NCBI GenBank assembly: GCA_013697635.1
Contig: JACCWM010000158.1
Span: forward strand, 1-32,172
Source of the DNA: Lujinxingiaceae bacterium
Lineage (GTDB): Bacteria > Myxococcota_A > Bradymonadia > Bradymonadales > Bradymonadaceae
Length of the DNA: 32,172 nucleotides
Reading direction: 5' to 3'
A model generated the notes under the pieces. The model was not told the DNA's origin. It saw only the letters and a program-made list of their open reading frames with translations, and searched no databases. This document shows, piece by piece, positions 18,652-26,844 of this stretch. Numbering within the stretch: the first letter of the stretch is position 1; each line of letters opens with the position of its first letter. A program made the translations under genes and the position numbers.

Positions 18652-20067
18652 TCACGATCCGAGAAGATCCTCGGGTGTGGCCAGATGGACTGAGTCTTCG
18701 TCTCGGGCGTAGGCCTCGAGTTCTGCGGTGAATCCCGACTTGGAGGCGATGAGGAATTGGCGCCTGGCATTGCGACCATAGGTGGTCTTCGCGGCGTCGG
18801 CGCGCAAATCGTCGAGCACATTCATACCCACCGGCGAGCTCCACCATTTGCATTCTCCAAAGAGCACCGTGCCGTCGAGCAGCGTCGCGGCGATGTCAAT
18901 ATCGTAGTCGGCGCCCCAGATCTTGCCAACCTCCCGGCAGGGAATACCCAGCCTTTCGGCCCCGTGACGAGCTACGTATTGATGGGCGATCCATTCAAAG
19001 ATCTCGCCCATATAGCCGTCAAATGCCGGCCGGACGGCGTGTTCATAAACTTCTCGGGCGTGTCCGGTCGCGATGGCGGAAATGTTGGGCAAACAAAAGT
19101 GGTACCAGAATGCCAGAAACGGGTCGGCGAGGTAGTAGCGACGATTGCGGGCCCTGGGAGAGGCATCGAGAGAGCGAACCACGCGGATGAGTCGCAGCGA
19201 TTCGAGCTTAGTAATATAAGGGGCGAGCGTGCTTCCATCGCCAATCTCGGGAGTACGGCCGACGATCTCACCTGTGGTCGTGCAGCCGGTGCCAATGGCC
19301 TGGAGAATCGTGGCATAACGCGCAGGCGAAGACAGCTCGGCCCGCAGGACGTTGAAAGCCTCGTTGGCAAGAGGAGCGCCCGGCTCAAAGATCAGCTCGC
19401 GGATGTTTTCGGCGAGGGAGACGGTCGGATCGCACAATTGAAGATAATAGGGCAGACCGCCAAAGACACCGTACGCAGCTAACTGATCGATGGACGAAAG
19501 GTTCGGAAAGAATCCCGCGGCATCGCGTATTGGGAGCGGTTCCACATCGATCTCCAGCGTCTGGCGACCGCGCAATGGGTTGCGCTCCCCGAGAAGCTCC
19601 TCCATGAAGGAGATCTTGGAGCCACAAAGGACCAAGTTCAGCCTGATGCCCTGGGCAACGACGCGATCAAAGACTTTCTGGACAATCGACGGCAATCCTT
19701 CGACGCTCTCGCAGATGTAGGGAAACTCGTCGAGGATGAGCGTGAGACCAGGGATTCGATGGTGAGCGAGCTCCGCCGTATAACTCAGCAGCGACTCCCA
19801 GTGCTCGATTCCCGAGAGGATCGGATCGGACTCGCCAAGTGCTGCGGCGATCGCTTCTTTGAGAAGGAGGAGATTCATTGACCCGACGACTTCGGTCGCC
19901 TGATAATACACGCTGGCCCGCCCACGGGTAACATGGGTCAAAAGCGTCGATTTGCCCACCCGTCGTCGGCCATACACGACAATTAGAGAGGGACGGTCCT
20001 TGTCCAATTCCCGACGCAGTGAGGTGATCTCCTGGTCGCGACCAATCAGCTGGCGGGCTGCCGTCAT
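18652..20067 (-). CDS. AAA-type ATPase with DUF234-like C-terminal domain
   Basis: The protein has 471 residues from the ATG at 20,067 (GGAG 6 nt upstream). The N-terminal half is a P-loop ATPase of the archaeal-type/DUF234 group: Walker A GRRRVGKST (about 33-41), Walker B LTLILDEF with D113 and E114, and an N-L-V-L-C-G-S sensor strand. A winged-helix part follows (about 240-310). The C-terminal part includes D391, E405 and K407 in a D-x(13)-E-x-K arrangement (GECKWW), like PD-(D/E)xK nuclease-type cores found in DUF234. These genes are often sporadic and associated with mobile or defence regions; the role is unknown. It interrupts ribB-ribH, has its own repeat-bearing upstream region and a less GC-biased base composition than its neighbours, suggesting acquisition by transfer. 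Confidence 0.88.
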   Translation of the reverse strand: MTAARQLIGRDQEITSLRRELDKDRPSLIVVYGRRRVGKSTLLTHVTRGRASVYYQATEVVGSMNLLLLKEAIAAALGESDPILSGIEHWESLLSYTAELAHHRIPGLTLILDEFPYICESVEGLPSIVQKVFDRVVAQGIRLNLVLCGSKISFMEELLGERNPLRGRQTLEIDVEPLPIRDAAGFFPNLSSIDQLAAYGVFGGLPYYLQLCDPTVSLAENIRELIFEPGAPLANEAFNVLRAELSSPARYATILQAIGTGCTTTGEIVGRTPEIGDGSTLAPYITKLESLRLIRVVRSLDASPRARNRRYYLADPFLAFWYHFCLPNISAIATGHAREVYEHAVRPAFDGYMGEIFEWIAHQYVARHGAERLGIPCREVGKIWGADYDIDIAATLLDGTVLFGECKWWSSPVGMNVLDDLRADAAKTTYGRNARRQFLIASKSGFTAELEAYARDEDSVHLATPEDLLGS

Positions 20068-20102
20068 TGTCGCTCCGTTGGTGACTGATGATGAAGAATC
20101 AC

Positions 20103-20147
20103 GATTATGATAATCTGGATTATCATAATCTGGATTATCATAATCAT
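20103..20147. repeat. Three 15-bp palindromic repeats upstream of the ATPase gene
   Basis: Three tandem 15-bp units each begin with a 13-bp palindrome GATTATnATAATC (20,103-20,115, 20,118-20,130, 20,133-20,145) followed by two bases. The centre base is G in the first and C in the others. They lie 36-80 nt upstream of the ATPase start, and each contains -10-like GATAAT on a strand. They look like operator sites for autoregulation or like iteron-type binding sites. In the longer reading frame they would encode an implausible repeated Asp-Tyr-Asx-Asn peptide. Confidence 0.85.
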
Positions 20148-20179
20148 GATCATGGACTCTCACAAGCCTTCGCACTCAG

Positions 20180-20259: not shown

Positions 20260-21402
20260 TTATGGGATCGCGACCTGGTCGACGATCTCGATGCCGTAGC
20301 CCTCGGCGCCGACGATCTTCTTGGGCTCGTTGGTGAGCACGCGAATCTTGCCGCAGCCGGCGTTCTTGAGGATCTGGGCGCCGATGCCCAGCGAGCGCAG
20401 GATTTGCTGGGGTTGGTTGATCTCGAGGGCGCGACGCGCGGCGGCGGCGTCCTCGCTGGACGGCGCGTTGAGGTGGCGGCGCACGAGATCGAGGGCGCTG
20501 GTCTCGGGCTTGTCGAGGTAGACGATCACGCCGGTGCCCTCGCTGGCGATTGCGGCCATGGTGCGCCCGACCTGCTGTGTGCAGGGGCTGCTCAGGCGCG
20601 TAAAGGCGTCGAAGGTGTCGCAGCGCGGCTGCACGCGCACCAGCGTGGGCGTTTGGGGCTCGGGCGTGCCGCAGATAAAGCACAGGTGTTGGGCGTCGTC
20701 GACGAGGCTGCGGATGACCTGGACGCGCCAAGAGCCCGGGTACTCGGTCGGGAGCGCGGCATCCTCGATCACCTCGATGAGGGTCTCGCGCTGCAGGCGG
20801 TAGGTGATGATGTCGGAGACCGAGAGTAGGATCAGCCCGTGGGTCTCGGCGAAGGCGCGCAGATCGGGCAGACGGGCCATGGTGCCGTCGGGGTTCATGA
20901 TCTCGCAGATCACGCCCGAGGGTTTGAGCCCGGCCATGCGTGCCAGATCGACGCTGCCCTCGGTCTGGCCGGTGCGCACGAGCACGCCGCCTCGGCGCGC
21001 GCGAAGCGGAAAGATATGGCCGGGCTTGACGATGTCCTGGGGGCGAGTCTCGTCGGCCACGGCCACGCGGATGGTGTGGGCGCGGTCGGCCGCCGAGATC
21101 CCGGTGGTCACGCCGGTGGCCGCCTCGATGCTCACGGTAAAGGCTGTGCCAAAGGGGCTGGTGTTGCTGTCGACCATCATCGGGATGCCCAGCTTGTCGA
21201 TGCGCTCGCCGGTCATCGTCATGCAGATCAAGCCGCGCCCGTAGGTCGCCATGAAGTTGATCGCCTCGGGCGTGACGCGCTCGGCGGCCATGACCAGGTC
21301 GCCCTCGTTCTCGCGCTCTTCGGCATCGATAAGGATGACGAGCTCTCCACGGCCAATGGCCGCGATGGCCTGCTCGACGCGCTCGATGATTTCGCTGTTC
21401 AT
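20260..21402 (-). CDS. ribB: 3,4-dihydroxy-2-butanone 4-phosphate synthase with degenerate GTP cyclohydrolase II-like domain (RibBX type)
   Basis: The protein has 380 residues, the RibBA length. Residues 1-205 are a complete DHBP synthase, which converts ribulose 5-phosphate to the four-carbon riboflavin precursor: acidic loop RENEGD (30-35), [30 protein letters not shown], and [10 protein letters not shown]. Residues 210-380 are related to GTP cyclohydrolase II but damaged. Of the three zinc cysteines (C-x10-C-x-C), only C261 and C274 remain while the middle one is S272; the E-G-R-G-I-G-L motif is replaced by KPETSALDL, and the catalytic Asp/Arg region reads QPQQI. The fold end ([17 protein letters not shown]) is kept. 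This matches RibBX proteins, in which only the RibB half is active. A real GTP cyclohydrolase II should be encoded elsewhere. Confidence 0.93.
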
Positions 21403-21424: not shown

Positions 21425-22069
21425 TTACGGCTTGGCTGAGCCAAAACCGGCATTTTGCAACATGTCCCAGTCGACGCCGCCCTCCGGGGCGACGAACTTC
21501 TTGACGTACTTTCCGAGCACGTCGGCTTCCAAGTTGACGCGCCGGCCTGGCGCATGGTCGCCGAGATTGGTCTTTTGGGCCGTAAACGGAATGATCGCAA
21601 GCCCAAAACGCTCGTTGCGCACCCAGTTGAGCGTCAGGCTGACCCCGTCAACGGTGATCGAGCCCTTGTCGATGAGATACTGCGCCACGCTCTGCGGCGC
21701 CTCGATCTCGAGCAGCCAGGTGTTCTTTTCGCGCGTGCGCGCGCGCAGGATGCCGACGCCGTCGACATGGCCGAGCACCATGTGTCCGCCGAGTCGGTCG
21801 CCCATGCGCAGGGCCCGCTCGAGGTGAACCCGGTCGCCGACCTTGCGATCGCCGAGCGTGGTTTTTCGAAGCGTCTCCGGGCTGGCATCGACGCTAAAGC
21901 TAGCCTTTGCCAGATCGGTCACCGTCAAACAGGCGCCGTCGACGGCGATGCTCTCACCGAGCTCGATCGTGGCGATCTCGAAGCCTGTGGTGATCGTCAC
22001 GGTCCAATTCTCTGCGCTCTGGCGAAGGCTTGCAATGGTGCCGATATCGGCGACAAGGCCGGTGAACAT
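21425..22069 (-). CDS. ribE: Riboflavin synthase, alpha subunit
   Basis: The protein has 214 residues, the normal length. It begins with the hallmark MFTGLV and shows the two tandem lumazine-binding halves: first half GESIAVDGACLTV and ...HMVLGHVDG, second half KGSITVDGVSLTL and IIPFTAQKTNL. It dismutates two 6,7-dimethyl-8-ribityllumazine molecules to riboflavin. It lies between ribD (14 nt upstream) and the RibBX gene (22 nt downstream) in the conserved order. The symbol ribE follows the delta-proteobacterial and Bacillus-like usage; in E. coli the same enzyme is called RibC or RibE. Confidence 0.97.
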   Translation of the reverse strand: MFTGLVADIGTIASLRQSAENWTVTITTGFEIATIELGESIAVDGACLTVTDLAKASFSVDASPETLRKTTLGDRKVGDRVHLERALRMGDRLGGHMVLGHVDGVGILRARTREKNTWLLEIEAPQSVAQYLIDKGSITVDGVSLTLNWVRNERFGLAIIPFTAQKTNLGDHAPGRRVNLEADVLGKYVKKFVAPEGGVDWDMLQNAGFGSAKP

Positions 22070-22083
22070 GATCGAGCTCCTTA

Positions 22084-23241
22084 TCAGGGCGAGCCAGGCT
22101 TTCGAGGCGTCAGATCGCGCAGGGCGTTGGGTACGTCTCCCCAGATCAGCACGTCATCACCCAAAAGGGCGATCTGGCGCTGTTCGAGGTCGATCACATC
22201 GGCCATCGTCGCCGCACCGAGTCCGGCAATGGGCGAGGGGGCATCGGCGCCGCCAATCAGCCTCGGGGCGATGAAGGCGTAGACGCGATCGACCAGTCGG
22301 CGCTCGAGCAGGGAGCCGACGAGCGCTCCGCCGCCCTCGACGAGCACGCTCAAGACGTCGCGTTGTCCGAGCGCCTCGAGCACGGCGCGCTCGTCGAGCC
22401 AGCCGCGCTTGTCGGTCGCCACGAGGGCGACCTCGACGCCTTCGCCTCTGCGGGCTGCGACGCGCTCGGCGTCGAGCCCCTCGGCGGCGAAGATCAGGAT
22501 CTTGGTGCTCGCGTTGGCGGTGTCAAAGACGCGCGACGTCGGCGAGGACTCCAGGCGCGCATCGAGCACGACGCGCATCGGGTCGCGGCCGGCTTCGAGG
22601 CGACAGTTCAGGCGTGGATCGTCTTTCTTCAGGGTCGTGGTTCCGACCATGATCGCGTCGTAGGTGTTGCGAAGCGTCTGGACGTGGTCGCGCGAGGCCT
22701 CGCCGGAGATCCAGGCCGAGTCGCCCGAGCGGGTGCCGATCTTGCCGTCGAGGCTCATCGCGTACTTGACCGAGACAAAGGGCAGGCCGGTGGCGATATG
22801 CTTGAAGAAGGGCGCGTTGAGCTGGCGGCTCTGCTGCTCGAGCACGCCGCAGACCACCTCGATGCCGGCCTCGCGCAGCACGGTGACGCCGCGGCCGCTG
22901 ACGCGTGGATTGGTGTCGATCGTGCCGATGACCACGCGGCGAATGCCGGAGGCGAGCACGGCGTTGGTGCAAGGCGGCGTGCGGTTGAAGTGGCTGCAGG
23001 GCTCGAGGTTGACGTAGAGCTCGCACTCGCTGCCGGGCACACTCAGATTGCGAAGCGCGGCGACCTCGGCGTGATCACTGCCAGCGCGCGCGTGAAAGCC
23101 TTCGGCGACGATCTGCTCGCCATGCACGATCACGCAGCCCACGGCCGGGTTGGGTCGCGTTCGACCCAGGCCACATCGCGCAAGCTCGAGGGCGCGGGCC
23201 ATGAAGCGCTCGTCGCGCTTTGCTGCAGGCTGGGTACTCAT
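22084..23241 (-). CDS. ribD: Riboflavin biosynthesis bifunctional deaminase/reductase RibD
   Basis: The protein has 385 residues, typical of fused RibD. The N-terminal zinc deaminase (about 1-145) has NPAVGCVIV, the HAEVAAL motif, and LEPCSHFNRTPPC (the usual G before RTPPC is Asn here). The C-terminal reductase (about 150-385) has VKYAMSLDGKI, SGEASRDHVQTLR, DAIMVGTTTL and VEGGGALVG. It deaminates and then reduces the pyrimidine intermediate of riboflavin synthesis. I use the ATG at 23,241 (AAGG 9 nt upstream); a GTG at 23,247 overlapping the nrdR stop is an alternative two codons longer. Confidence 0.96.
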   Translation of the reverse strand: MSTQPAAKRDERFMARALELARCGLGRTRPNPAVGCVIVHGEQIVAEGFHARAGSDHAEVAALRNLSVPGSECELYVNLEPCSHFNRTPPCTNAVLASGIRRVVIGTIDTNPRVSGRGVTVLREAGIEVVCGVLEQQSRQLNAPFFKHIATGLPFVSVKYAMSLDGKIGTRSGDSAWISGEASRDHVQTLRNTYDAIMVGTTTLKKDDPRLNCRLEAGRDPMRVVLDARLESSPTSRVFDTANASTKILIFAAEGLDAERVAARRGEGVEVALVATDKRGWLDERAVLEALGQRDVLSVLVEGGGALVGSLLERRLVDRVYAFIAPRLIGGADAPSPIAGLGAATMADVIDLEQRQIALLGDDVLIWGDVPNALRDLTPRKPGSP

Positions 23242-23246
23242 GAGCA

Positions 23247-23753
23247 CTAACCTTCGTCTTCTTCATCGGGCGGTGTTGGCGCGTCGGCCTCGGGATGGGC
23301 GTCCGAGCGGCCCATCGCCTTGAGTTCTTGGAGGAACTCTTCGATGTCACTGAAGCCGCGATACACGCTGGCGAAGCGAATATAGGCGACCGGGTCGAGA
23401 TGGCGCAACTGCGTGGTGATCGCCGAGCCGACCCAATCGCTGGAGACCTCGCGCAGGCCAAGCTCGAGCATCTGCTCCTCGATGCGGTCGACGACCTGAT
23501 CGATCTGCTCGAGCGAGATCGGGCGCTTGCTGCAGGCCAGGCGTATGCCACGGCGAATCTTCTGGCGGTCGTAGTCCTCGAGGCTGCCGGCTTGTTTGAC
23601 GATCTGGGGGAAGGCCTCCTCGATGTGCTCATAGGTGGTGAACCGGCGATCGCAGTGCAAACACTCTCGCCGCCGGCGGATCGCCTCGCCGCCCTTGGAA
23701 TGGCGCGAGTCGACGACCTTGTCTTCCATGTGGCCGCAAAAAGGACAACGCAT
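23247..23753 (-). CDS. nrdR: Transcriptional repressor NrdR
   Basis: The protein has 168 residues, about the normal length. The N-terminal zinc ribbon (C3, C6, C31, C34) starts with the hallmark MRCPFCG and carries RRRRECLHCDRRFTTYE. An ATP-cone follows (about 49-140: VKQAGSLEDYDRQKIRRGIRLA, then the helical bundle and YIRFASVYRGF). NrdR senses dATP/ATP and represses ribonucleotide reductase genes at NrdR boxes. The ATG overlaps the preceding stop by one base (TGATG), and its own TAG touches ribD. nrdR next to ribD is a widespread arrangement. The acidic tail (EEDEG) is unremarkable. Confidence 0.97.
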   Translation of the reverse strand: MRCPFCGHMEDKVVDSRHSKGGEAIRRRRECLHCDRRFTTYEHIEEAFPQIVKQAGSLEDYDRQKIRRGIRLACSKRPISLEQIDQVVDRIEEQMLELGLREVSSDWVGSAITTQLRHLDPVAYIRFASVYRGFSDIEEFLQELKAMGRSDAHPEADAPTPPDEEDEG

Positions 23754-24475
23754 CAGCGATTGTTCTCGTTTTTCTCGATCTCGGCGATGCGATGCACACG
23801 GCGCTGGTGGCGGCCGTCATCGCCGGGCTCAAAGGCGGTATTCAAGAAAGCCTGCAAACACGAAAAGGCCATCTCGGGCCCAATCATGCGGCTTCCCATG
23901 CACAAGACGTTGGCGTCGTTGTGTTGGCGCGCGAGGGCGGCGCTGACCGGCTCGCTGACCATCGCCGCGCGCAGGCCGCGCACCTTGTTGGCCGCGATCG
24001 ACATGCCGATGCCCGATCCACAGGTCAAGACGCCAAAGCGCGCCTCCTCGAGGGCAATTTTGCGGCCCAAAAGCTCGGCAAAATCCGGATAGTCGACCGG
24101 GTGGCTCTCCGTGGGGCCCAGATCGAGCACGCTGTAGTCGCGGGCCTTGAGCCAGCGAATCAGCTCACTTTTGAGGCCGACGCCGGCGTGATCGCTTGCC
24201 AGGGCGACATCAAAGCTCTCGGAGGCTTCCGAGGGCTCGTGGGAGCGAAGAGGCTCGATGAGCGCGACCAGATCGCCCACCGTGGCGATCTTCTCCAGGG
24301 AGGCCTCGGCGATCTCGCCCAGCGCAAAGACCTCTTCGACTCGCCAGACCAAGTTGACGATATCGAGGCTGTTCGCACCCAGATCGTCGACAAAGTGATC
24401 GCTCAAGCGGATCTCGCGGTCGGAGATCTCGAGGATCTCAGCCACGACACGAATGACTTCAGTCTCGGTGGACAT
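23753..24475 (-). CDS. Acyl carrier protein-ribose-5-phosphate isomerase B fusion
   Basis: A single 240-residue frame from the ATG at 24,475 encodes two unrelated complete domains. Residues 1-76 are an acyl carrier protein: VAEIL, DHFVDDLGANSLDIV with S36 as the phosphopantetheine attachment site, and the TVGDLVALI end. A 12-residue linker rich in Ser/Glu follows. Residues 88-234 are RpiB: ASDHAGVGLK, DLGP, DYPDFA, the CGSGIG active-site Cys (C152), NKVRGLRAA, NDANVLCMGSRMIG. RpiB interconverts ribose and ribulose 5-phosphates, the latter being the RibB substrate. I know no common ACP-RpiB fusion. In related genomes acpP-fabF-rpiB are consecutive, so loss of fabF could have joined them. The gene overlaps nrdR by one base. 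Confidence 0.9.
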   Translation of the reverse strand: MSTETEVIRVVAEILEISDREIRLSDHFVDDLGANSLDIVNLVWRVEEVFALGEIAEASLEKIATVGDLVALIEPLRSHEPSEASESFDVALASDHAGVGLKSELIRWLKARDYSVLDLGPTESHPVDYPDFAELLGRKIALEEARFGVLTCGSGIGMSIAANKVRGLRAAMVSEPVSAALARQHNDANVLCMGSRMIGPEMAFSCLQAFLNTAFEPGDDGRHQRRVHRIAEIEKNENNR

Positions 24476-24529
24476 CGCAGGCGTTTCCTGAGGGTGGCGG
24501 GCGCCGAGTGCTCGGGGACAAAACACATG

Positions 24530-24553
24530 CGGCGCCGCAGGTGCGCGGCGCCG
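24530..24553 (-). terminator. Terminator hairpin after rpmF
   Basis: Two CGGCGCCG arms (24,530-24,537 and 24,546-24,553) form an 8-bp all-GC stem with an 8-nt loop. On the minus strand the stem is followed within about 6 nt by TTTT (CATGTGTTTTGTCC). It lies in the 143-nt gap between rpmF and the ACP-RpiB gene and is likely to terminate or attenuate the yceD-rpmF transcript. Confidence 0.5.
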
Positions 24554-24618
24554 ATGCAACGAAGTTCTCACCGCCCAGATCAAACGTGCAAGCCGCCGGC
24601 TTCAAGGCCAGCGAGCCG

Positions 24619-24807
24619 TCAGACCTGCTCCCAAACCTCGACGACCTGCTCCTCGCGATACTGACCGCACTCGGCGCATGCGCGATGAGGGCGGCGCGGC
24701 GCATAGCAGTTGTCGCAGCGCTGAGTGAGCACGGGCTTGGTGATGTCGTGGTTAGCCCGGCGTGAGCGGGTCTTGGCCTGTGATTTTCTCTTTTTTGGTA
24801 CAGCCAT
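24619..24807 (-). CDS. rpmF: 50S ribosomal protein L32
   Basis: The protein has 62 residues, the normal length for L32. The N-terminus MAVPKKRKSQAKTRSRRAN is the family hallmark. A zinc-ribbon with two CxxC-like pairs follows (CDNC, then CAEC), so this is the zinc-binding (C+) form. An AGGAGG ribosome-binding site lies 6 nt upstream of the ATG. It follows yceD after an 83-nt gap, the usual pairing. In most relatives plsX and fab genes follow; here the ACP-RpiB gene comes next after a terminator-like hairpin. Confidence 0.98.
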   Translation of the reverse strand: MAVPKKRKSQAKTRSRRANHDITKPVLTQRCDNCYAPRRPHRACAECGQYREEQVVEVWEQV

Positions 24808-24890
24808 GGTGTGCCTCCTATTGGTGCCAGTTCAAACGAGCGAAAGCATCCACGGGTATCCAACGAATTCAAGGGATGCTTCGAAGTTTC

Positions 24891-25481
24891 TTAGTTTACA
24901 TCTTTGTCCGAGCCGGGGTCAGCCAGCTTGACGTTTCTCAGGGCCGTCCAGCGAAGGTCGACTTGAGCCTCTTCATTGGATGCCACGGCTTCTTCACCGA
25001 TATTGCGTTCATAAGCTTCATCGCACTGCTCGCTGATCTCGGGCGAACACAGTGCAAAGTTTGGAAGTTCGAGCAGAACCGCTTCGCGAATGATCGGGCG
25101 AAGATCGATGAGGTCGCCCTCATAGTAGCTGACGTCGAGATCTTCGGGTGAAAGCTCGATCTCGGCGTCTTCTTCGTAGGCCTTTCGCCACGAGGGGCGG
25201 GACATCAACACAAATTCCACTTCTGCGTCAAGGTCAATCGGCCGAAGCTCCAAGCAACGCCCGCAGTTGAACTCGAATTGAGCGCGCATCGTGCCCTTCA
25301 GGCGAATCGTGGTGTCGATAAGCGAGGCATCGAGCTCCATGACGAAATCTGCGCCCTCAACCAGCGAATAATCACTGTCGGTGCCCTCGAACAGCCAACT
25401 CATCTGTTCGCCTGATCCGCGAAGCGCGATGTGCAACGGTTTGCCGTGAAAGCCGAGTAGATCAAGTTCGAAGGTGTTCAT
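24891..25481 (-). CDS. yceD: DUF177/YceD family protein
   Basis: The protein has 196 residues, typical of YceD. The family marks are present: the first Cys pair CGRCL (about residue 75), a hydrophobic-acidic central strand set, DLRPIIREAVLLELPNFALC with the second Cys, then C...  downstream and the C-terminal DLRWTALRNV segment. YceD lies before rpmF across bacteria and has been linked to 23S rRNA processing or accumulation; the exact mechanism is not settled. It begins the housekeeping transcription unit and is preceded by a candidate promoter at 25,535-25,563. The N-terminal region is acidic and unremarkable. Confidence 0.93.
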   Translation of the reverse strand: MNTFELDLLGFHGKPLHIALRGSGEQMSWLFEGTDSDYSLVEGADFVMELDASLIDTTIRLKGTMRAQFEFNCGRCLELRPIDLDAEVEFVLMSRPSWRKAYEEDAEIELSPEDLDVSYYEGDLIDLRPIIREAVLLELPNFALCSPEISEQCDEAYERNIGEEAVASNEEAQVDLRWTALRNVKLADPGSDKDVN

Positions 25482-25534
25482 ATCATTTGGCTCGAGGGTT
25501 AGGCGGGCGCTTGCTTGAGGAAAAAGCGGGGCGA

Positions 25535-25563
25535 AACCTACAGTCCCGTGCGACCCGAGTCAA
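25535..25563 (-). promoter_or_regulatory. Possible promoter of the yceD-rpmF unit
   Basis: On the minus strand TTGACT (25,563-25,558; 5 of 6 to -35) is followed after 17 bp by TAGGTT (25,540-25,535; 3 of 6 to -10). Initiation near 25,528 would give a leader of about 46 nt before yceD. The 286-nt gap to the divergent gene shows no FMN-riboswitch-like conserved segments. Confidence 0.35.
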
Positions 25564-25687
25564 TATATGCTGTCAGGGTTTTGCAGTGCGCCGGCAAAGG
25601 GTCGCTGGCGCAGATCAGAACATCGCTACAAAACGCCCAACGTGCAGCGCTTATTTCGCCATGGGGCCATGGGAAAGTCATGCGTGT

Positions 25688-25717
25688 TTGACTAAAGTGG
25701 CGCGATGCGCGTCTAGT
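25688..25717 (+). promoter_or_regulatory. Possible promoter of the divergent lipoprotein gene
   Basis: TTGACT (25,688-25,693; 5 of 6 to -35) is followed after 18 bp by TCTAGT (25,712-25,717; 4 of 6 to -10). Initiation near 25,724 gives a leader of about 44 nt to the ATG at 25,768. Confidence 0.4.
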
Positions 25718-25767
25718 GAGCGTGACAAATTGAGTGACGGTTTTTAGCGATGCTCCAAAGGATGGCG

Positions 25768-26844
25768 ATGACGACCAGGAATTTAAAAATAAGAGCAGCG
25801 CTCGTTGGGCTCGGGCTGATTGCGACGAGCTGCGGGCCGATGCAGCCCCACGAATACACGACGAGCGTGGCCGGTGCCTACGATACGACCTCACGCTACG
25901 ACATGGGCGCGGCCTCGGGCATGCTGCAGAGCAGCGCGAGCTCCTGGAGCTCGCCGGAGGTGGCGATCGTCAAGTCGATCATCGACACCGTGCGCAGCTC
26001 CTTTGGTCAGGACGCGGCCAACGGCGTCTCCAACTACTATGGCGAGACGCTGCAACGCGATGTTCGCGGCTACCTGTTGGCCGAGTCGCCACCCTGGGCG
26101 ATGAATATCTCCGAGCAACTCGGCCGCGTCGACGATCAACTCAAGACCGTCGACATCCAGGGCAGCTGGCTGGTCGCCGAGAAACAGGGCGGCCAATACG
26201 AGGTCACACAGATCTGGAGTGGCATCTCGGTGTTCAAAAACCCCAGTTGTCGCTCGGGAGGCAGCCTGCTCTGTGAACAATTCCATTTCTCCACCGAGAG
26301 CCTGCTCGAAGCGGAGTATCCGATCGAGATCATCAGCTCGCGCGCCGGCGCCATTGCCAGCGGCCAGGCGCTCGTTGTCGACGCGCATCAGGTGGAGTTC
26401 AATTATGGGCGCCTCGGGCTCTACATGCTGATCAACCAGTTGCTTCCCAATCGCGCCGACGAGGGCGGCATCGGCGTGCGCGATGTCGCGCTGGCCGCGG
26501 TCAACTGCCGCGGTTTGGCCGGCCGCCTCGCCGGCGACGACGACGTGCTCGGCTGGGAGTTTGGTGGCACGCGCATTGGACTGAGTTTGAGCCAGCTCGT
26601 GGGAAGCTGCGAGGAGGGCGTCTTCGGCTCGGTCAACCGCTTCGTCGACAACTTTAATCTGCCACTGAAGATGGATCTGAGCGGAAGCGCACAGATGGTC
26701 GACACGACGCGTGATGGCAAGATCAACCGGCTGGACAATGGCCAGCTCAGCGGAGCGATGAACCTCGCCAGCGGGCGCTCCAATGCGCGCGAGGGCGATG
26801 TCAGCGGCGAGTTCACCGCTTATCGCGTGGGCAGCTTCAATTAA
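25768..26844 (+). CDS. Lipoprotein of unknown function
   Basis: The protein has 358 residues. The start at 25,768 is chosen because AAAGG lies 6 nt upstream; the frame has earlier ATGs at 25,750 and 25,762 that would place the ribosome site inside the gene. The signal ends in Ile-Ala-Thr-Ser-Cys (about residue 22), a good lipobox. The mature protein begins with a Ser/Thr-rich helical stretch, then alternating strands (SWLVAEKQGGQYEVTQIW, YPIEIISSRAGAIASGQALVVD), a Cys pair (CRSGGSLLC, about 166-174) and a repeat of amphipathic strands towards the end, finishing with a lipid-binding-like beta-rich domain. No family is recognised. A 33-nt gap separates it from the LEA14-like lipoprotein gene, with which it is probably co-transcribed. 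Confidence 0.8.
   Translation: MTTRNLKIRAALVGLGLIATSCGPMQPHEYTTSVAGAYDTTSRYDMGAASGMLQSSASSWSSPEVAIVKSIIDTVRSSFGQDAANGVSNYYGETLQRDVRGYLLAESPPWAMNISEQLGRVDDQLKTVDIQGSWLVAEKQGGQYEVTQIWSGISVFKNPSCRSGGSLLCEQFHFSTESLLEAEYPIEIISSRAGAIASGQALVVDAHQVEFNYGRLGLYMLINQLLPNRADEGGIGVRDVALAAVNCRGLAGRLAGDDDVLGWEFGGTRIGLSLSQLVGSCEEGVFGSVNRFVDNFNLPLKMDLSGSAQMVDTTRDGKINRLDNGQLSGAMNLASGRSNAREGDVSGEFTAYRVGSFN

Follow-up and report, generated by a model that had tools for sequence, protein, structure and literature searches.

The acyl carrier protein (ACP) of bacterial type II fatty acid synthesis (FAS-II), AcpP, is a four-helix protein that carries a serine where helix II begins, and RpiB is an oligomeric ribose-5-phosphate isomerase. 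Enterococcus faecalis has an atypical ACP, AcpB, that is tied to exogenous fatty acids, and acyl-AcpB is a substrate of PlsX (available part of PMC6509188). Loss of FabB/F and FabI/L is reported for 13 Bradymonadales genomes, and almost all strains except FA350 are reported to be without key steps to ribose 5-phosphate (available part of PMC7460792). An ACP-RpiB fusion was not found in the available part of that account of incomplete FAS-II in Bradymonabacteria, and a literature search over texts that were available in part found no work on such a fusion.

The window, a 32,172-nucleotide contig of a Lujinxingiaceae bacterium (JACCWM010000158.1, assembly GCA_013697635.1), carries an open reading frame in which an ACP and an RpiB are joined. 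Both families are known; their combination in one protein is new. The fused ACP shares the fold and the serine of AcpP and descended in place from an operon acpP; in a tree, the fused ACPs group with AcpP, apart from specialised ACPs (support 97/91). Unlike AcpP, it is covalently joined to RpiB, scores below the AcpP equivalog cut-off (TIGR00517, NCBIfam, 56.2 to 58.9 bits against 70.45), has W44/R45, an extra loop residue and no Asp35, and belongs to a genome without FabF. The other half is like RpiB in passing the equivalog cut-off (TIGR01120, NCBIfam, 153.4 bits against 138.65), in its intact active-site set and in its fold (Foldseek matches to 3he8 and 2vvr with a target TM of 0.95–0.97, 0.97 for 3he8). 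It is unlike RpiB in having an N-terminal ACP domain and in the decay of the active site in three relatives where the ACP persists. E. faecalis AcpB resembles the fused ACP in being atypical, and shows that such an ACP can serve PlsX and exogenous fatty acids; it differs in being free-standing, in supplementing AcpA and in its intact FAS-II (available part of PMC6509188).

The acp::rpiB open reading frame

The locations of the fusion and of neighbouring genes are shown in Table 1. The plus strand of positions 23753–24475 is also open, but its frame is meaningless and the coding frame is that of the minus strand. A Shine-Dalgarno-like AGGAAA lies about 9 nt before the ATG, and the N-terminal MST is kept in most family homologues.

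A first-pass annotation had described this frame as an ACP with an intact GANSLD serine site and a complete RpiB with the CGSGIG motif, joined in frame by a 12-residue linker. The description holds in each part. The product matches both Pfam families above cut-off (PP-binding, PF00550, 36.7 bits against 20.8; LacAB_rpiB, PF02502, 172.6 bits against 24.7), both motifs are present as claimed, the linker is of the expected length, and homologues that align over both domains are found in 22 further genomes with 38%–63% identity. With this conservation, the frame is more than the chance product that the first-pass annotation had considered as one possibility.

AlphaFold2, given the window protein aligned with 12 proteins of fetched loci, predicts two confident domains (mean pLDDT 90.4, pTM 0.63). 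The ACP helices are at residues 3–15, 36–50, 57–60 and 66–78, and linker residues 80–84 have a pLDDT <50. The ACP half also matches solved ACP structures (Foldseek). The active-site residues of the RpiB half are D95, H96, Y129, C152, H185, N186, R222, H223 and R226; the set (D, H, Y, C, G, S/T, H, N, R, H, R) was aligned to E. coli RpiB.

Table 1. Positions of the fusion gene, its parts and its neighbours in the window
Feature	Positions	Strand	Remarks and basis
acp::rpiB fusion CDS	23753..24475	-	240 aa, ATG at 24475, stop at 23753
ACP domain, residues 1-76, four-helix	24248..24475	-	PF00550 above cut-off, AlphaFold2 helices, Foldseek
Ser36, predicted phosphopantetheine attachment site, AGC in GANSLD	24368..24370	-	Ser in 23/23 fusions and DNA
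Linker, about residues 77-88	24212..24247	-	low pLDDT; poor conservation among relatives
RpiB domain, residues 89-240, active-site set intact	23756..24211	-	Pfam, NCBIfam, alignment, Foldseek
rpmF (L32), upstream neighbour, one edge of the fab deletion	24619..24807	-	Pfam, synteny
yceD	24891..25481	-	Pfam, synteny
nrdR, downstream neighbour	23247..23753	-	Pfam, synteny
ribD	22084..23247	-	profile match
ribE, riboflavin synthase, lumazine-binding	21425..22069	-	profile match
ribBA	20260..21402	-	profile match

Distribution and origin of the fusion

The class sample consists of 57 genomes in families f1–f7; f1 (in Bradymonadales, probably the family Bradymonadaceae, 21 genomes) is the family of the window. 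The same domain pair, which the first-pass annotation proposed to look for in sequence databases, is found in 23 of the 57, i.e. 17/21 in f1, 5/5 in f2 and 1/1 in f6. It is absent from all f3, f4, f5 and f7 genomes of this sample, f3 and f7 being the families that keep fabF. Three f1 genomes without the fusion (G003, G007 and G015) have no ACP part, and in a fourth (G008) the locus is cut by a contig end. A wider contig scan of the best 80 of 572 relatives shows three fusions (L048–L050), which probably correspond to G018, G002 and G020. In a phylum sample (377 genomes taken from a larger set), there was no further full-length fusion among the matches listed, where weak fusions may be missed, but only the unfused G137. 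On plasmids (tblastn), no place covered 80% of the fusion query, and the five matches listed were RpiB-sized.

Synteny was mapped in 30 fetched loci and the window. The outgroup order is yceD-rpmF-plsX-fabH-acpP-fabF-rpiB-nrdR-rib. The segment acpP-fabF-rpiB is present in all nine fetched outgroup loci (families f3/f7); rpmF-plsX lies upstream in six of them, and neither gene was found within the fetched stretch in the other three. In the one locus checked, L151, FabH (TIGR00747, 322.5 bits, cut-off 292.1) separates plsX from acpP. Fusion genomes display the order yceD-rpmF-[acp::rpiB]-(nrdR)-rib, with yceD-rpmF-[acp::rpiB] in the window and in the ten f1/f2 fusion loci checked (11/11). In the f6 locus, the fusion is accompanied by the rib genes, with neither yceD nor rpmF found alongside. 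The order in three f4 loci and in B. sediminis is yceD-rpmF-rpiB, with no ACP.

FabF is above cut-off in 15/57 genomes, all in f3/f7 and none with the fusion. The AcpP equivalog is passed in 16/57, i.e. these 15 and the f6 fusion genome G031 (84.6 bits), which is the only fusion to pass TIGR00517. The window genome (6.2 Mb, 99.45% complete) shows no FabF above cut-off, and its KS matches are all in large multidomain open reading frames or a thiolase. The FabF results agree with the published losses in Bradymonadales.

The unfused locus in G137, a member of another class, has the order rpmF-acpP-TAA-GAGGTCCCG-ATG-rpiB (L174:7834–8490, minus strand, G137:C36). Here acpP and rpiB share one frame and are separated by one TAA stop and 9 nt; no plsX, fabH or fabF match was found in the 16 kb around the pair. 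G137 shows an independently reached state just before fusion.

It had been proposed in the first-pass annotation that acpP-fabF-rpiB is the usual order in relatives and that deletion of fabF could have made the fusion. The order and the origin by deletion stand, supported by the outgroup operon and the G137 intermediate. The proposed extent does not, since plsX and fabH are lost from the site too, in an event no younger than the order Bradymonadales; judged from synteny, the deletion took more than fabF and happened earlier than proposed. The ancestral operon lost the fab genes that flanked acpP, which placed acpP beside rpiB. The stop codon of acpP would then have been lost, fusing the two open reading frames no later than the origin of Bradymonadales; for this second step the unfused in-frame intermediate is known from the other class.

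A candidate role for the ACP half

The fusion is probably a scar of FAS-II loss that was turned to use, by way of fab deletion and stop loss, with selection on both halves, independent action of the two, and the ACP serving as a general carrier, most likely with PlsX.

A second acpP elsewhere in the genome, for which the first-pass annotation suggested a search, was not found above the AcpP cut-off in the window genome. There is one other free-standing ACP (C110:19943, 23.5 bits), beside a FAAL-PKS and a serine-palmitoyltransferase-like gene. This C110 pair was rejected as a second acpP, as it is a specialised FAAL-PKS cluster with an AcpK-like ACP and not FAS-II. With FAS-II lost, the fused ACP is a candidate for the only remaining AcpP-type carrier, and the need for an ACP beyond fatty acid synthesis is thereby testable in cultured bacteria.

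PlsX (PF02504) is found in 38/57 class genomes. An AcpP-type carrier (E ≤ 1e-8) is present in 37 of these 38, the exception being G008, whose locus runs into a contig end; of the 19 genomes without PlsX, 4 have such a carrier (Fisher 2.6e-9 over 57 genomes, relatedness ignored). Within f1, PlsX occurs in 13/17 fusion genomes and 0/3 fusionless ones (Fisher 0.03, relatedness ignored; G008 was left out, as a contig end lies 9 bases from the start of its RpiB). Since PlsX is confined to carrier genomes (37/38), the best guess from these co-occurrences is that the ACP half supplies PlsX. One family member, G005, passes the PlsX equivalog cut-off (271 against 243.4), and its PlsX adjoins a phosphatidate phosphatase-like gene. 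The PlsX-APP1 pair is conserved; PlsX is not beside the fusion in f1, and no tie to rpiB was seen in the PlsX neighbourhood. Four fusion genomes in two lineages (G001, G006, G009 and G012) have no detectable PlsX; thus PlsX is not the whole story.

The ACP would be charged with phosphopantetheine by the PPTase of the genome (PF01648 at C125:56850, a 307-aa frame; another PPTase lies within a megasynthase) and would carry acyl groups for general use in a cell that has no FAS-II. It would most likely exchange acyl chains with PlsX (acyl-ACP + Pi -> acyl-phosphate), and phospholipids would result from scavenged or megasynthase-made fatty acids.

LipB is another user of acyl-ACP. That the ACP half serves LipB (lipoate synthesis), a PfaA-like megasynthase or some regulatory partner (SpoT, for example), and not PlsX, is unlikely but retains some weight: LipB is found in 20/21 f1 genomes, the megasynthase is conserved, and PlsX is undetected in the four fusion genomes named above. 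However, the fusionless G003 and G007 have both LipB and the megasynthase too, and the megasynthase carries its own ACPs. LipB was rejected as a discriminator, being found with and without the fusion. Lipid A synthesis was also set aside as the job of the ACP; LpxA is above cut-off in 0/21 f1 genomes, so this use is unlikely here.

The C110 cluster (L047:5295–13483, G000:C110) consists of a FAAL-ACP-KS-AT PKS, two SDR reductases, the AcpK-like ACP and the serine-palmitoyltransferase-like gene; related ACPs are found in G003, G007 and G010. A 3664-aa PfaA-like megasynthase is encoded beside a carboxyltransferase gene (L128:6350–17344, minus strand, G000:C32). Its domains are a FabK-type reductase, KS, AT, two ACPs, a second KS, KR, DH and PPTase, and its score with the PfaA model, 971.9 bits, is under the cut-off of 1010.1. 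Similar frames of 3000–4100 aa with a PPTase occur in other f1 genomes. The megasynthase may replace FAS-II in this group, which is reported to be without complete fatty acid synthesis.

Twelve genomes, those of f5 and of the f4 genus g23, show no AcpP-type carrier (E ≤ 1e-8), no convincing FabF, no PlsX and, except for G048, no PPTase match. These are apparently ACP-free bacteria.

Selection on the two halves and their separate losses

Ser36, D31 and E47 are each kept in 23/23 fusions. When compared with nine outgroup AcpPs, the fused ACPs display derived residues W44 (20/23), R45 (21/23) and L59 (21/23), and one extra loop residue (22/23). Asp35, just before the serine, is invariant in the nine outgroup AcpPs and is replaced by T, S or N in all 23 fusions. 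The dN/dS values (NG86, nine pairs) are 0.14–0.39 for the ACP and 0.06–0.18 for RpiB; of the ten genome pairs taken, G001–G012 gave no ACP value, with synonymous sites saturated. The sequences show purifying selection on both halves; the ACP kept its serine and evolved a surface of its own (W44/R45 and the extra loop residue). That the ACP survives only as a passive relic, with acyl carriage lost, is quite improbable. The ACP does evolve somewhat faster than RpiB in most pairs, Asp35 is gone throughout and B. sediminis survives without the ACP half; against this are the invariant serine, D31 and E47, the dN/dS well below 1, and the ACP that outlasts the isomerase site in three genomes.

A tree was made from NrdR, RibD, RibE and RibBA (31 rows, 31/57 genomes). 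Families f1, f2, f4 and f6 form one clade (100/100), and the fusion families f1, f2 and f6 are grouped weakly (85/59). B. sediminis (FA350, G007, L134) is inside f1 as the sister of G010 (100/100); its locus is yceD-rpmF-rpiB-nrdR and the ACP is absent. As B. sediminis is nested in the fusion clade, the ACP half was lost secondarily. The f6 ACP is nearest to ordinary AcpP in the ACP tree, which has too few columns to judge an independent f6 fusion.

Losses are also found on the other side. The RpiB active-site set is intact in 20/23 fusions, including the window protein, and is degenerate in three f2 genomes, G022, G023 and G025 (L148, L153 and L147), all of which own RpiA and keep the ACP serine. 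In these three, ACP identity (56%–67%) exceeds RpiB identity (37%–52%). RpiA is absent in 21/21 f1 genomes and present in 4/5 f2 genomes, among them G021, where the RpiB site is intact (RpiA presence versus degenerate site, Fisher 0.002, relatedness ignored). The RpiB of the three genomes may have changed its substrate rather than lost activity. In f1, RpiB is the only family of ribose-5-phosphate isomerase found by sequence search, and the RpiB half would there interconvert ribulose 5-phosphate and ribose 5-phosphate. The fused RpiB may explain the published ribose 5-phosphate gap, FA350 being a cultured strain of B. sediminis with RpiB unfused.

The two halves are thus not retained or lost together, and these one-sided losses argue against coupling as the reason for the persistence of the fusion. 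The first-pass annotation had proposed that the fusion would attach an acyl or phosphopantetheine arm to a pentose-phosphate enzyme whose product feeds the adjacent RibB. Regulation or localisation of the isomerase by the state of the ACP, linking lipid status, pentose-phosphate flux and riboflavin synthesis, is very improbable, although an effect of this kind may, with low probability, exist in the window protein itself. The fusion does persist across an order (23 genomes) and riboflavin genes adjoin it, but either half has been lost, or has decayed, in genomes that keep the other, the linker shows disorder and little conservation, and the rib genes are adjacent even where acpP and rpiB are separate. 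The relatives with one half lost suggest that the two halves keep separate functions, and the preferred reading, a scar of FAS-II loss turned to use, would have the two act independently, several ACPs standing on flexible arms around one oligomeric isomerase core. An assembly or sequencing error at the join, named in the first-pass annotation as what would undo its reading, is hardly conceivable and is excluded by conservation of the same join in 23 genomes, among them two with single-contig chromosomes (G005 and G010) and that of the named isolate L. vulgaris TMQ2 (Lujinxingia vulgaris, G018). Nor is the fusion an accident of one strain.

The locus gives a clean history of fusion by operon decay, from an intact operon through an in-frame unfused intermediate to a fusion and its reversal from either side. 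A persistent fusion need not imply functional coupling, contrary to the usual inference from fusions. Bradymonadales are bacterial predators. It is possible, though tentative, that in this order without FAS-II the acyl-ACP chemistry that is left, namely phospholipid synthesis by way of PlsX, takes place on a carrier mounted on an isomerase oligomer, and that in one branch the isomerase is a non-catalytic scaffold.

A promoter/terminator scan of positions 24400–25900 gave no signal above chance. Between rpmF and the fusion is a 10-pair GC-rich stem with a T-rich tail (24530–24553, minus strand); such sites occur at chance frequency. Downstream of ribBA, an ATPase_2/DUF234 protein is encoded (18652–20175, minus strand), the C-terminus of which has a weak Mrr-type nuclease match.
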